Shown here piece by piece: positions 40,401 to 46,400 of a stretch of 64,000 nt of DNA. The position numbers were made by a program, and so were the translations under genes. The stretch is taken from contig OX459107.1 of the NCBI GenBank assembly GCA_949775045.1, positions 11,869,250-11,933,249 of the forward strand. The letters are read 5' to 3'. The notes under the pieces are model-generated. The model was not told the origin of the DNA and did not search any database. It saw nothing but the letters and a program-made list of their open reading frames with translations. The stretch is from Metridium senile (taxonomy: Eukaryota > Cnidaria > Anthozoa > Actiniaria > Metridiidae). Every line of letters starts with the position of its first letter. Position 1 is the first letter of the stretch.

Positions 40401-43400
40401 ATACACAGCAAGTTAGTCACTTGGCAGAGATGGAAAGCCTTAACAAGACAGACGACCAGTCTGACACCATGAACCAGGACATTACTGAATTTACTGATGT
40501 TGACTTTGATGATCATATGAACGTCAAACAATTTGAAAATAAAGATTCCGTGACGGAACTTACCAGTGTTGAGTTGTGTGACATGGAACGGATTTATGAA
40601 AAATTCTTGCGTGACAGTCATGTTGATTTTTGTAATCAAAGCACTAATACAGATAGCAGCTCTGTGACTAAGGTTGACAGCGAAGTCATGACGGATTTCG
40701 TTTGGGTAGATATAGTCGAGGTCGAGGAAACTTATAAAGAGTTTCTAGAAAATATGGCAAGTTTCGAGGGTCTTAGTTTGGTAAAACCAACTTTAAACAA
40801 GATTGAAAAGGAGACCGCAACTGACTTTAGTTATTATGATATCGTGAAGCTAGAAACTATGGGAAGACAGTTAGAAGAACTCCACGAGGCAGCACTGAAA
40901 AGAGGTGAGCAACGGAAGGAGCAGGGTTGCAACACAGAGGTCGTGGAGAAACATGAGACTGAATGCAACACTGATCATGTTCAAAAATACGATATGTTTT
41001 CATTGACTGACTTGACAATGTCTGAAATAGATCAGAAAAGGGATATGCTTGCAGTTTCAATGAGTAGAGTGCAGGACCTCGAGAACGAGTTGTTAATTAA
41101 CAAAAATGAAGCCATGGTCAAGAATAGCAAGTTGGAACAGCAAGAAAGAGAATACAAAGAGAAAATTAAGAATTTGAACGAACTTTTGGCTGAAGAAAAG
41201 GAAATGAGGAAAACTGACCAAGCAAAGGTGCAAGACCGTGAGCTGCTTTACCAGGGGCTAGTCGATAGGTTTACTGTAGAAGTGCAACACACCATGGCAC
41301 AAGAGATCGTGGTAACAGCGATAGGCAACGCATTAACTGCTCTAGCAAATGAGACTCTCGATAAAACCTTCCGAAACAACACCATGCAAGAAATGAATCA
41401 TTTAAAGGCATTAATACAGGAAAAAGACGAAACACTAGAACAATTACAAAAACAGTTAATTGAATCCATTAAACTTGACGAAGTAAAAGCATTAAGAGAT
41501 GCATTAGCTGAGAAAGAGCAGTCATTGACTGAACTACGGGATATGCTAATTGGAGCAGAAGTTGAGAAAGACAAGATAGTTCAAAATCTTGGAGAAGATA
41601 TAAATGCGCTACAAAAACAATTACTAAGAGAGAAAGAACTGAGAGAAAAAGAAATAATGCAACAGCAGTGTTTAAATGAACATAGGGAATCGTACGAACA
41701 GAAGATAATAGAATGTCAAGCAATAAACCAAGAACTACAAGAACAGGTGAAAGACCTACAAGAACAACATTTGAATGAGGAAAGTAAACTAAGCGAATAC
41801 CGTGAGAAGATAGAAAAGAACGAATTGCTGTACTACCAACGATGCCAGGAAAAGATAGCACAGGACACGGTCACAAAGGCTATTATCAACGCTCTCTCGG
41901 AAGTTGTAAATACTAGGATGATGGCCCTCAAACGACAGATAACCTCAGAGGAAGAAGTAAGAGAGTTTTACGAGGAAATGATCGAACAATACGAGAAATT
42001 GCACCAAGAAAGCTTGAATGAAAAGGATTCGTCACAATACCAAAGGGCAGCACACACAATAGTCCTTAAGGCAGTAAACGATGCAGTGTCTGTGGTAGCA
42101 AATGTAGCAATCACTGATTTACATGAACAGCTAGAAAGACAACATGGCAATGAAGAAGAATTAAAAGAGACACAAGAAAGAGTCGACTTGTTAAGGCAAG
42201 AAATAGCAGTACAAAGATTGGTGATGAAGGCAGTGGTCAATGCATTGTCTCACGTAGCAAATGAAGCTATTCATTCTGTTCTTTATGACTTACAACAACA
42301 GGCCAATAGTAAACAAACAAGTTTATCAAGACATAATGAAACTTTAACCGATTTGACCGATGAATACATTGAAAACCTTCAGGACCCGTATCAAAGTAAT
42401 CTCCTAGAACTAGAATTGTTGAGATCAACCATGAGTGAACAGGAAAGGGAACTGGGTAAAGTAAATGATGAAATATCGGTATTGAGACACGACAAGAAGG
42501 ATTTGGATGACAAGTGTGTGTTGTTATCACAACAAGACCAGTTAAACCGAGAACAAATCAATGATTTACAACAAAAACTAAAGATGGAACAAAACAGACA
42601 AGAAACAAGTGAGAAAAACAACAGAGCCGTACAGCAAGATCTCGTTGAGGAAATGCAACTAAACATTGCACATATGATAGTAAAGAACGTTGTTAGTAAT
42701 GCCATTGCCACAGAACAGATGAACAATTTACAAGAACAACTGAAGATGAAACAAGAAATACAGGAAACTATGGAGGAAAAACTTATCGAGAATGAAGAAG
42801 TTTATCAACAATTTGTCAAGACTTTAACAGAACAAGAAAAAGAAAAGATCGCCAAAAGTATTGTCAGCGAATCCATCACAAGTGCCTTAGTACAAGTTTC
42901 AAATGAGATAATCCATGACCTACAGCATCACTTGCTAATGGAACAAGAAACTAAAGAAGCAGTAGCGAAAAAGAATGTTGAGATTACAGTAGACAAAGAT
43001 GAGGCTGAAGTGATGACTGACCTGAGATGGGAAGACATTAATCACATGGAGAATAATTACCAAGAGCTGATTGAATCTGCACAGCTCTTAACAACACAAT
43101 TTACTCAAAAAGAACAGTGTGATGCAGGAATAATGACAGACATGTCATGGACAGACGTACTGAACGTGGAGGAGAAATACCAGGAATTCCGAGAAAATAT
43201 CCAAGAAATACAAGATAAACTTGCCATGGTTGATGTTGATAAAGACGACGTTGAAGTCATGACTGACTGTACGTGGGATGAGATGATGGAACACGAGCAA
43301 TTGTATGAACAGCAGATTGAAGATTTACAACAACAATTGACTACACAGAACCAGAGAGTAGAGGATGAGAAGACCAATGCAGACAAGTATCAAATGATAA

Positions 43401-46400
43401 TCCAGGAACACTTGTCCAGAACATGTGAAGATAAATGTAGTATGACAGACATGGTGTGGACACAAGACCTACTAGAGAGGACTGCAAAAGACATAGGACA
43501 ACGATCTACTTATCAAGCTATATCTGAAGTAGCAAACGAAGTTGTTTATGACTTACAACAACAGGCCAACAGTAAACAAACAAGTTTATCAAGAGATAAG
43601 GAAACGTTAACCGATTTGACCGATGAATACATTGAAAACCTTCAGGACTCGTATCAAAGTAATTTCCTAGAACTAGAATTGTTGAGATCCACCATGAGTG
43701 AACAGGAAAGGGAACTGGATAAAGTAAATGATGAAATATCGGTATTGAGACACGACAAGAAGGATTTGGATGACAAGTGTGTGTTGTTATCACAACAAGA
43801 CCAGTTAAACCGAGAACAAATCAATGATTTACAACAAAAACTAAAGATGGAACAAAACAGACAAGAAACAAGTGAGAAAAACAACAGAGCCGTACAGCAA
43901 GATCTCGTTGGGGAAATGCAACTAAACATTGCACATATAATAGTAAAGAACGTTGTTAGCAATGCCATTGCTACAGAACAGATGAACAATTTACAAGAAC
44001 AACTGAAGATGAAACAAGAAATACAGGAAACTATGGAGGAAAAATTTATCGAGAATGAAGAAGCTTATCAACAATTTGTCAAGACTTTAACAGAACAAGA
44101 AAAAGAAAAGATCGCCAAAAGTATTGTCAGCGAATCCATCACAAGTGCCTTAGTACAAGTTTCAAATGAGATAATCCATGACCTACAGCATCACTTGCTA
44201 ATGGAACAAGAAACTAAAGAAGCAGTAGCGAAAAAGTATGTTGAGATTACAGTAGACAAAGATGAGGCTGAAGTGATGACTGACCTGAGATGGGAAGACA
44301 TTAATCACATGGAGAATAATTACCAACAGCTGATTGAAGATTTACAACAACAATTGACTACACAGAACCAGAGAGTAGAGGATGAGAAGACCAACGCAGA
44401 CAAGTATCAAATGATAATCCAGGAACACTTGTCCAGAACATGTGAAGATAAATGTAGTATGACAGACATGGAGTGGACACAAGACCTACTAGAGAGGACT
44501 GCAAAAGACATTGGACAACGATCACAACTCGACGCCATTTTTGAATTAGCAAATGAAGGCACTAATGAATCCGTGAAAATCGATAAGGTCACTATGACCG
44601 AGGTTTCTTGGAAAGAAATTGAATGGGTAGAAGAATTGCGATTGATGAAGGAAGACATACAACGAAAAGCTGCTGAATGTAAAGACCAAATATGTATGAC
44701 GGATGGACCATGCCTTCAAGACGCTCTTGTTATGACTGATCTTGACTTGGAACAAATAGCAGCTTTGGAAATGGTAAAAGATAAAAGTGTCTTACTACAC
44801 AAGGACACGATGACTGATCTTAAATGGGATGATGTTATGTACCTTGAAACAACGTACTTACAAAAACTAGATGAGTTACAAATCATTGCTGCATCCATAA
44901 AGGATAGTGAACACAAGGAAACAATTGGTAGAGAATCAATGACGGAGCTGTCGTGGACAGACGTATTGTCCTTGGAGACTTCTTACAAGGAAGAACTTGA
45001 GAAGATAAGTCTTCTTGAAGAAAGTTTACACCATGTCAATAATGATTTAATGGATGAAGGAACAATGACTACGTTGAACTGGTACGAGGTAGAATGTCAG
45101 TTGGGTACTTACAGAGATCAAATCGATGCTCTAAAACAAATGCTCGAAGATGAGAAAGCCCGCAGTTCAGTAGAACAGATCCAAGTCACAGAGGCTGGAA
45201 TTGTTGAGCGTTCATGTATGGATGAGCTTGGATGGGCTTTCAGCTTGGATGCAATAGAAGACGATGTAGAAGTTGATGATGATATTCTTGTGAATAGCTT
45301 CCAACAATCTAAGGAAGAAGCCGCAAGTATGACTGATATTGGTTGGCAAGACCTTGTCTGCAAGGACTCGTTTGATAATAGTATGAATGATAAATGTTGT
45401 TCAACTGATATAACATTGCAATGTAGTGCTCATATAAACATCACGGCTATGGAAGAAAAGGTTGAAAAGGAAAGTACCACAGACTTATCAGTGATTGATT
45501 TGATCAACATGGAGGATATCTACTGGCAAGAGATGCAACGATTGGAAGAATTAAGTGAAAAACACTGTAAATTAGCTGACAAAAACTGTATGACAGACCA
45601 AGTATTGACTGACAATACTGAATGTATGACTGAACTTAGTAGCTATGACATTGACCAAATGAACAAAGAAGAACAGCACACGACAATTGATGACAAAGAC
45701 CTAAAGTCAAAGAAGGAGAATACTTTGACAGACAAGCTGGAGGTAAAGGGGAGGTGGTGCATGTTTGCACAAACCATTGCACATTGCTGCATTACTCAGA
45801 TGCACTGGTAGCTGCATGCAGTACAGAATTTAGATGATTTGTAAAGTTTATTCTTGCTTTTTTGTTAATGCGCAAATATATCAAAAAATGAATGCTTAGC
45901 TCTTGAAAATCGATATATTTTTGTCCGGTAAAGCTGGATAATGTTAACGTTATGAGCGCGAATGTTTCATTTTCCATGTTTTGGCTAGCGCGATTTGCGG
46001 TTCAATTACAATTTCTGTGATTATTAATCAGTTATTATTTGTTTGTTTTTAGCCGAAGCACGAAAGTGATGCAAATATTGGTTTTGAGTTTGATGAAAGC
46101 TTGGAAGATAGCCTTACCAGAGATCGTGACCACCGAACCCAGGAGACCAGTACCGATATAACTCTTGATGACATGGTTTACTTTGAAGATTTAGAAGTCA
46201 AACATCACGAGTTGATGATGAAAACAAAGCAAGGAAGCATGTCTCCATTAGATAAAAATGGCAAACCTATCAGTACTAACAAACAAACAGATACAAATGT
46301 TACACTAGACGATATGAACTACTCTGAGCTTAGCATTGACCAACTGGAAAATAAGCACATTCCTACTTCACCATCTGGGGATTTACATGAGGGAACCCCA

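Follow-up and report, generated by a model that had tools for sequence, protein, structure and literature searches.

The window analysed here is a stretch of 64,000 nucleotides of the Metridium senile genome (assembly GCA_949775045.1, contig OX459107.1, positions 11,869,250 to 11,933,249 of the forward strand). It contains a giant exon carrying repeated units, here called A units, whose 12-residue core resembles the helix by which A-kinase anchoring proteins (AKAPs) dock the type II regulatory subunit (RII) of protein kinase A (PKA). The gene to which this exon belongs is most likely a member of the JAKMIP family, because exons upstream of it match the Pfam family JAKMIP_CC3. The giant exon is bordered by an acceptor (ctaccctag/) and a donor (gag/gtaaag), and its frame has no stop codon where 132 would be expected from base composition, the other two forward frames having 181 and 189. 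A wrong frame or non-coding DNA is ruled out by the absence of stops over all codons together with the splice signals. A second large exon with splice signals of its own follows in frame. The features are collected in Table 1.

Table 1. Features of the window. Unit coordinates start at the first base of the 12-residue core, and identities (x/6) are to the core AxxIVxxAIxxA as printed in an excerpt of PMC3682517.
Feature	Coordinates	Strand	Remarks
Giant exon	40367-45742	+	5,376 nt, 1,792 codons, phase 0 in and 0 out
Unit A1	41297-41359	+	core AQEIVVTAIGNA, 6/6
Unit A2	41858-41920	+	core AQDTVTKAIINA, 5/6
Unit A3	42050-42112	+	core AHTIVLKAVNDA, 5/6
Unit A4	42209-42271	+	core VQRLVMKAVVNA, 3/6 identical, the rest conservative
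Unit A5	42668-42730	+	core AHMIVKNVVSNA, 4/6; 3 residues shorter past the core
Unit A6	42851-42913	+	core AKSIVSESITSA, 5/6
Degenerate unit d7	43484-43546	+	AKDIGQRSTYQA; chimera
Unit A5b, copy of A5	43931-43993	+	core AHIIVKNVVSNA
Unit A6b, copy of A6	44114-44176	+	identical to A6 across the unit
Degenerate unit d8	44501-44563	+	AKDIGQRSQLDA
Internal duplication, second copy	43541-44523	+	first copy at 42278-43506, of which the second lacks about 0.25 kb
MTDL-type repeat, 35 units (33 distinct)	40475-47882	+	both large exons; approximately [DE]-x-M-T-[DE]-L-[TS]-W-x-D-[IVL]-x-x-L-E
Second large exon	46053-48234	+	2,182 nt; open frame of 727 residues
JAKMIP CC3-region exons, five pieces	34895-37141	+	Pfam PF16034 match; limits hand-made
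Four short predicted exons (37594, 37918, 38829, 39467-39532)	37594-39532	+	splice signals and open phase-0 frame

All eight intact cores stand in one register. A preliminary description of this DNA had reported a tandem array of eight segments in one exon, five of them fitting a generic AKAP pattern fully and three with a single mismatch. A recount with the regular expression that it quoted gave the same figures (T at position 4 once, S at position 8 twice). Eight intact cores are indeed present, but only six are distinct, A5b and A6b being duplication copies. Two degenerate units, d7 and d8, which had not been listed, were found besides the eight.

The published RII-docking consensus, as excerpted, reads LxxxAxxIVxxAIxxA, with the core AxxIVxxAIxxA. 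In the two large exons (2,519 residues) seven windows agree with this core at four or more of its six defined positions, while three shuffle models of 2,000 shuffles each averaged 0.17-0.25 such windows, with at most 2-4. When all windows were ranked by BLOSUM score to the longer consensus, the top eight were exactly the eight units. Their core scores, in order of position, are 24, 19, 23, 17, 19, 21, 19 and 21 of 24, and the best window in 300 pattern-keeping shuffles (13.3 ± 2.0) lies below this range. Chance as the origin of the pattern is ruled out by the excerpted consensus in combination with the three shuffle models. The A-unit repeat is real.

All eight units thus fit the RII core at 17-24 of 24, whereas at these sites no more than 10-16 is reached with an RI-type core derived from RIAD (shuffle best 13.7). 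A6 reads KIAKSIVSE where the peptide AKB-RII has KIAKMIVSD, so that KIAKxIVS[DE] is common to both; a dissociation constant (KD) of 2.7 nM is given for AKB-RII (PMC4526808, Table 1). Similarity to AKAP-is and SuperAKAP-is is above background, the median of the array being reached by 1.3% and 2.6%, respectively, of 229 background windows. With a panel of seven AKAP cores, seven of the eight units fell within the top 16 windows. The A-unit pattern is a better match to the excerpted RII docking core than to the alternatives tested. A talin-type vinculin-binding helix (LxxAAxxVAxxVxxLIxxA) was tried separately and rejected: of 36 possible points the cores reach -5 to 2 and the best positions nearby 7-15, with a shuffle best of 14.6.

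The units extend beyond the core. The preliminary description had placed a tail of VANE followed by DLQ behind each motif. A tail is present in most units, but it is looser than claimed: exact VANE occurs only twice in the giant exon, and [VL][AS]NE six times (A1, A4, A6, A6b, d7 and d8). A5 and A5b are without it, A2 has VVNT and A3 has VANV. In composition, the A units hold more Ala, Val and Ile and less Asp and Glu than the rest.

Codons were compared in all 15 pairings of the distinct A units, six in number, with positions 1, 4, 5, 8, 9, 12 and 13 taken as the helix face and positions 2, 3, 6, 7, 10 and 11 as off-face. Face comparisons comprise 17 identical, 47 synonymous and 41 non-synonymous cases and off-face comparisons 6, 7 and 77, a contrast to be read with the caveat that the face was chosen from conserved residues. 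The face is held at the protein level while the off-face is free to vary. The pattern, real and repeated, is apparently under selection. No D, E, K, R or H occurs at the nine scored face positions in five of the six distinct units, the exception being A5 (and A5b) with E at position 16, and the 33-residue stretches of the units contain no proline. In A1-A4 and A6 the hydrophobic pattern extends far enough to make five turns. The hydrophobic angle of the units, 85-95 degrees, compares with 86-94 degrees for the six peptides of PMC4526808, Table 1. An AlphaFold2 (AF2) model of 41183-42334, made from one sequence, is almost all helix, with A1-A4 inside predicted helices (overall predicted local distance difference test, pLDDT, 67.6; predicted template modelling score, pTM, 0.31), which is weakly consistent with docking.

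The growth of the array can be followed in part. The internal duplication, of roughly 1-1.2 kb, consists of two blocks, 42278-43066 recurring at 43541-44329 and 43308-43506 at 44325-44523; the repeat finder returned 300 nt at 97% (D1, spacing 1263) and 199 nt at 98% (D3, spacing 1017). Between the copies 21 of 328 compared codons differ, 7 of them synonymously (non-synonymous rate, dN, 0.018; synonymous rate, dS, 0.040). Because the copies are this similar, A5b and A6b count as recent copies and six units as distinct. Both degenerate units have kept a [VL]ANE tail and lost the core (G at position 5, S at position 8). Within 43430-43620, d7 is d8-like on the left (100 of 111 nt) and A4-like on the right (75 of 80 nt), with the junction near 43541. 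Hence d7 probably bears the scar of an unequal crossing-over event that took place inside a docking-type helix. Since d7 combines d8 and A4, the array has probably expanded by unequal crossing-over within the helix unit, and the simplest history would be an exchange between A4 and d8 inside that unit. In protein searches of the own genome, the A3-A4 stretch proved to be single-copy and the stretch 44525-45742 had no match outside the giant exon.

The A units share the giant exon with a second repeat family, absent from the preliminary description and forming the larger array. A weight matrix seeded with 14 hand-picked segments, then iterated and thus trained on the same protein, found 35 MTDL-type units as compared with a mean of 0.72 and a maximum of 3 in 100 shuffles. 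The T is present in all 35 and is followed by [DE] in 33. One of the 35, KDTMTD near 44804, resembles the LC8 site of myosin Va, DDKNTMTD, as given in excerpts of PMC3078936 and PMC6607443. A canonical LC8 ladder is nevertheless not supported, because Gln at position 0 (the TQT anchor) occurs in none of the 35 units and Met in 17. The second large exon contains MTDL-type units and no A units, its best match to the excerpted core in the core scan being 3/6. A 117-bp tandem duplication (ESLIHELKLENELYKQQ) lies at 46593-46832 in the same exon.

Pfam supports the JAKMIP context named in the preliminary description as far as the upstream exons are concerned. Nine of these, joined by hand, match PF16034 at 48.1 bits (E 1.5e-12, cut-off 30.2) over model positions 76-192 of 200. 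The match covers residues 11-130 of the joined translation, i.e. the first five pieces only, ending at 37141; a single upstream exon by itself reaches 23.8 bits, under the cut-off. The end of the third piece and the start of the fourth are off GT/AG as typed, and the limits of these two are therefore approximate. The four short predicted exons are not covered by the PF16034 match and come after it, ahead of the giant exon. We take the exon 39467-39532 and another at 16346-17111 to be JAKMIP-like, the latter without a Pfam match. Strand, order and phase suggest that the giant exon is spliced onto the JAKMIP exons.

Among the predicted JAKMIP exons, the minus strand has an open frame of 1,767 codons at 21492-26795, presumably that of a BEL/Pao-type retrotransposon polyprotein. 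A simple-repeat array with several open frames occupies 27598-28116. About 1.6 kb of tandem repeats at 57419-59026, again with several frames open (YRDDNGNDEDNSNNS-like in one), is probably a minisatellite.

Searches of family and structure collections returned little. On the two large exons, Pfam gave no family over its cut-off (only Gag_p24_C, 15.1 bits against 25.9) and NCBIfam no family, and no chain of the PDB matched the giant exon. Nine aligned segments (the eight units and d7, with d8 left out) matched no Pfam family; used as a profile against the PDB, they brought up a single lysozyme chain (E 0.096), taken as spurious. A1 and A4 submitted alone matched no PDB chain, a silence that tells little because with an AKAP-is-like control peptide just one AKAP peptide came up, and this at E 0.88. 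In the literature, no multi-site RII or PKA array appeared in the titles or abstract beginnings of the full-text matches listed, a coverage outside which most subscription journals lie. The papers in which JAKMIP turned up beside AKAP and PKA, which were not read through, mention them once or a few times each.

Possible partners are encoded in the same genome, where at least eight matches to the RIIa model exceed the family cut-off among the 72 matches listed. Two of the matches above the cut-off look like PKA RII. One (L003) has an RII-like N-terminal docking exon, which by itself reaches 52.6 bits with the RIIa model and may be part of an ordinary RII gene; 20 of 39 residues of its docking segment are identical to a human RIIalpha segment. 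The other (L006, 1492-2655) combines RIIa and two stretches of cyclic-nucleotide domain in one open frame; it is a PKA RII-like regulatory subunit and its gene perhaps a retrogene.

According to our favoured model, to which we assign a probability of roughly 0.45, the giant exon is the part of a coiled-coil protein of the JAKMIP family that carries multivalent anchoring helices for a docking domain. Every intact A unit would form an amphipathic helix of about five turns, with its aliphatic face (positions 1, 4, 5, 8, 9, 12 and 13) lying in the groove that a dimeric docking domain offers. The likeliest such domain is that of PKA RII, and a single chain could then bind as many as eight R dimers. 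The array would have been built by unequal crossing-over inside the helix unit, which also left two dead units behind. The naming of PKA RII itself as the partner is tentative. From the sequence we infer the exposure of the helices, the binding of RII, its stoichiometry and a role in cAMP signalling. A bolder and rather doubtful extension is that JAKMIP in this lineage became a high-valency PKA scaffold with up to eight RII helices per chain (sixteen in a coiled-coil dimer) that alternate with a second ligand repeat and could bring type II PKA together on microtubules in dense clusters.

A number of observations weigh against docking. The RII-docking likeness claimed in the preliminary description holds in tests independent of its own pattern, namely the excerpted consensus in one register, the substitution pattern of the face and the RII-type domains in the genome, but fails at position -4: none of the six distinct units has Leu there (the residues are Q, Q, Y, Q, Q and K, with M, I, A, A, I and I at position -1). 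The RII consensus as excerpted does not include the conserved [VL][AS]NE tail. An equal rate in shuffled sequence, named in the preliminary description as a ground for refutation, is contradicted for the excerpted core by the window counts given above; the generic AKAP expression is only mildly enriched, with 17 overlapping hits as compared with a mean of 5.3 and a maximum of 18 in shuffles that kept hydrophobic positions. Two scrambled consensi also find the Ala/Val/Ile-rich stretches, with 8 of the top 10 windows each; they reach up to 22 of 24 near A3, in other registers, and only 3-9 at the common register. Whole-peptide similarity to Ht31, AKB-RII, RIAD and AKB-RI is not above background (32-44% of the background windows reach the median of the array), and with the AKAP panel A2 falls outside the top 16 windows while windows in other registers rank among them. 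Hydrophobic moments are ordinary (0.26-0.35 for the 12-mers against a mean of 0.28 for all windows), those over 18 residues being only mildly above their own shuffles for A1-A4 (p 0.01-0.05) and not above them for A5 and A6 (p 0.68 and 0.39). The hydrophobic angle of 85-95 degrees is found in 39% of 556 background windows too. In the AF2 model, 10-residue blocks over A1-A4 have a pLDDT of only 47-68. The duplication, with a dN/dS of 0.44, points to only mild constraint. Protein database searches found nothing at E ≤ 0.001 for residues 150-1250, among the 7,999 candidates sharing most words, and nothing at E ≤ 10 for residues 470-660, among 525 candidates. The contrast between face and off-face codons, predicted by one-sided docking, is predicted equally by any amphipathic helix.

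The last point leads to the main rival, in our estimate an unlikely one, that the A units are self-association helices, i.e. Ala/Val/Ile-rich stretches that pack within or between chains as knots in the long coiled coil; the tail's conserved Asn would then be polar but buried, and would fix the register. The codon pattern, the ordinary amphipathicity and the almost entirely helical AF2 model would all be expected from it, as would a conserved unit that, in the six carriers of [VL][AS]NE, exceeds the docking core. Self-association does not predict the particular AxxIVxxAIxxA residues of the excerpted consensus in one register, and hydrophobic pairs every four residues would be off the heptad. 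A smaller part of the probability given to docking falls to a related domain of the ropporin/SP17/CABYR type or of DPY-30, with a ciliary or structural role. The RIIa matches above the cut-off, at least eight with two that look like PKA RII, favour such a partner, and so does the excerpt of PMC12203939, in which the partners of these domains (DDIPs) are mostly older than AKAPs and mainly ciliary. According to the same excerpt DPY-30 partners have four helical turns and AKAPs five, a number for which A1-A4 and A6 are long enough, and the excerpted RII consensus fits the core best among those tried; we regard this variant as improbable. There is also a slim chance that the helices have no partner, being hydrophobic repeats that were spread by unequal crossing-over and retained only for helix formation. 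The crossing-over scar in d7 and the existence of two degenerate units agree with this, but on the face the residues are maintained across 47 synonymous codon differences, whereas those off the face vary.

If docking as proposed is true, avidity and clustering of type II PKA on a many-site anchoring protein would become directly testable, and the locus would show a route, unequal crossing-over, by which an array of docking helices can grow. To our knowledge, known AKAPs have one or a few RII helices each. The A units share with AKAP RII helices, as these are described in the excerpted sources, the core, the aliphatic face and the lack of proline, as well as KIAKxIVS[DE] between A6 and AKB-RII. 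They differ from them in that eight intact units, six of them distinct, stand in one exon, in the lack of Leu at -4 and in the extra [VL][AS]NE tail of most units. The MTDL-type repeat is like the LC8/DYNLL ladders of ASCIZ in its many short motifs with T at +1 in every unit; it differs in the missing Q at position 0 and in a conserved LxWxDIxxLE extension past the LC8 motif. For the JAKMIP protein Marlin-1, binding to microtubules, kinesin, GABAB1 or JAK is stated in the excerpt of PMC2685396. The M. senile gene resembles JAKMIP1/Marlin-1 in its upstream CC3 match above the Pfam cut-off and in encoding a coiled-coil-like protein, and differs from it in two giant exons, of 5.4 and 2.2 kb, that hold two repeat families. 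We know of no vertebrate JAKMIP with two giant exons of this kind.

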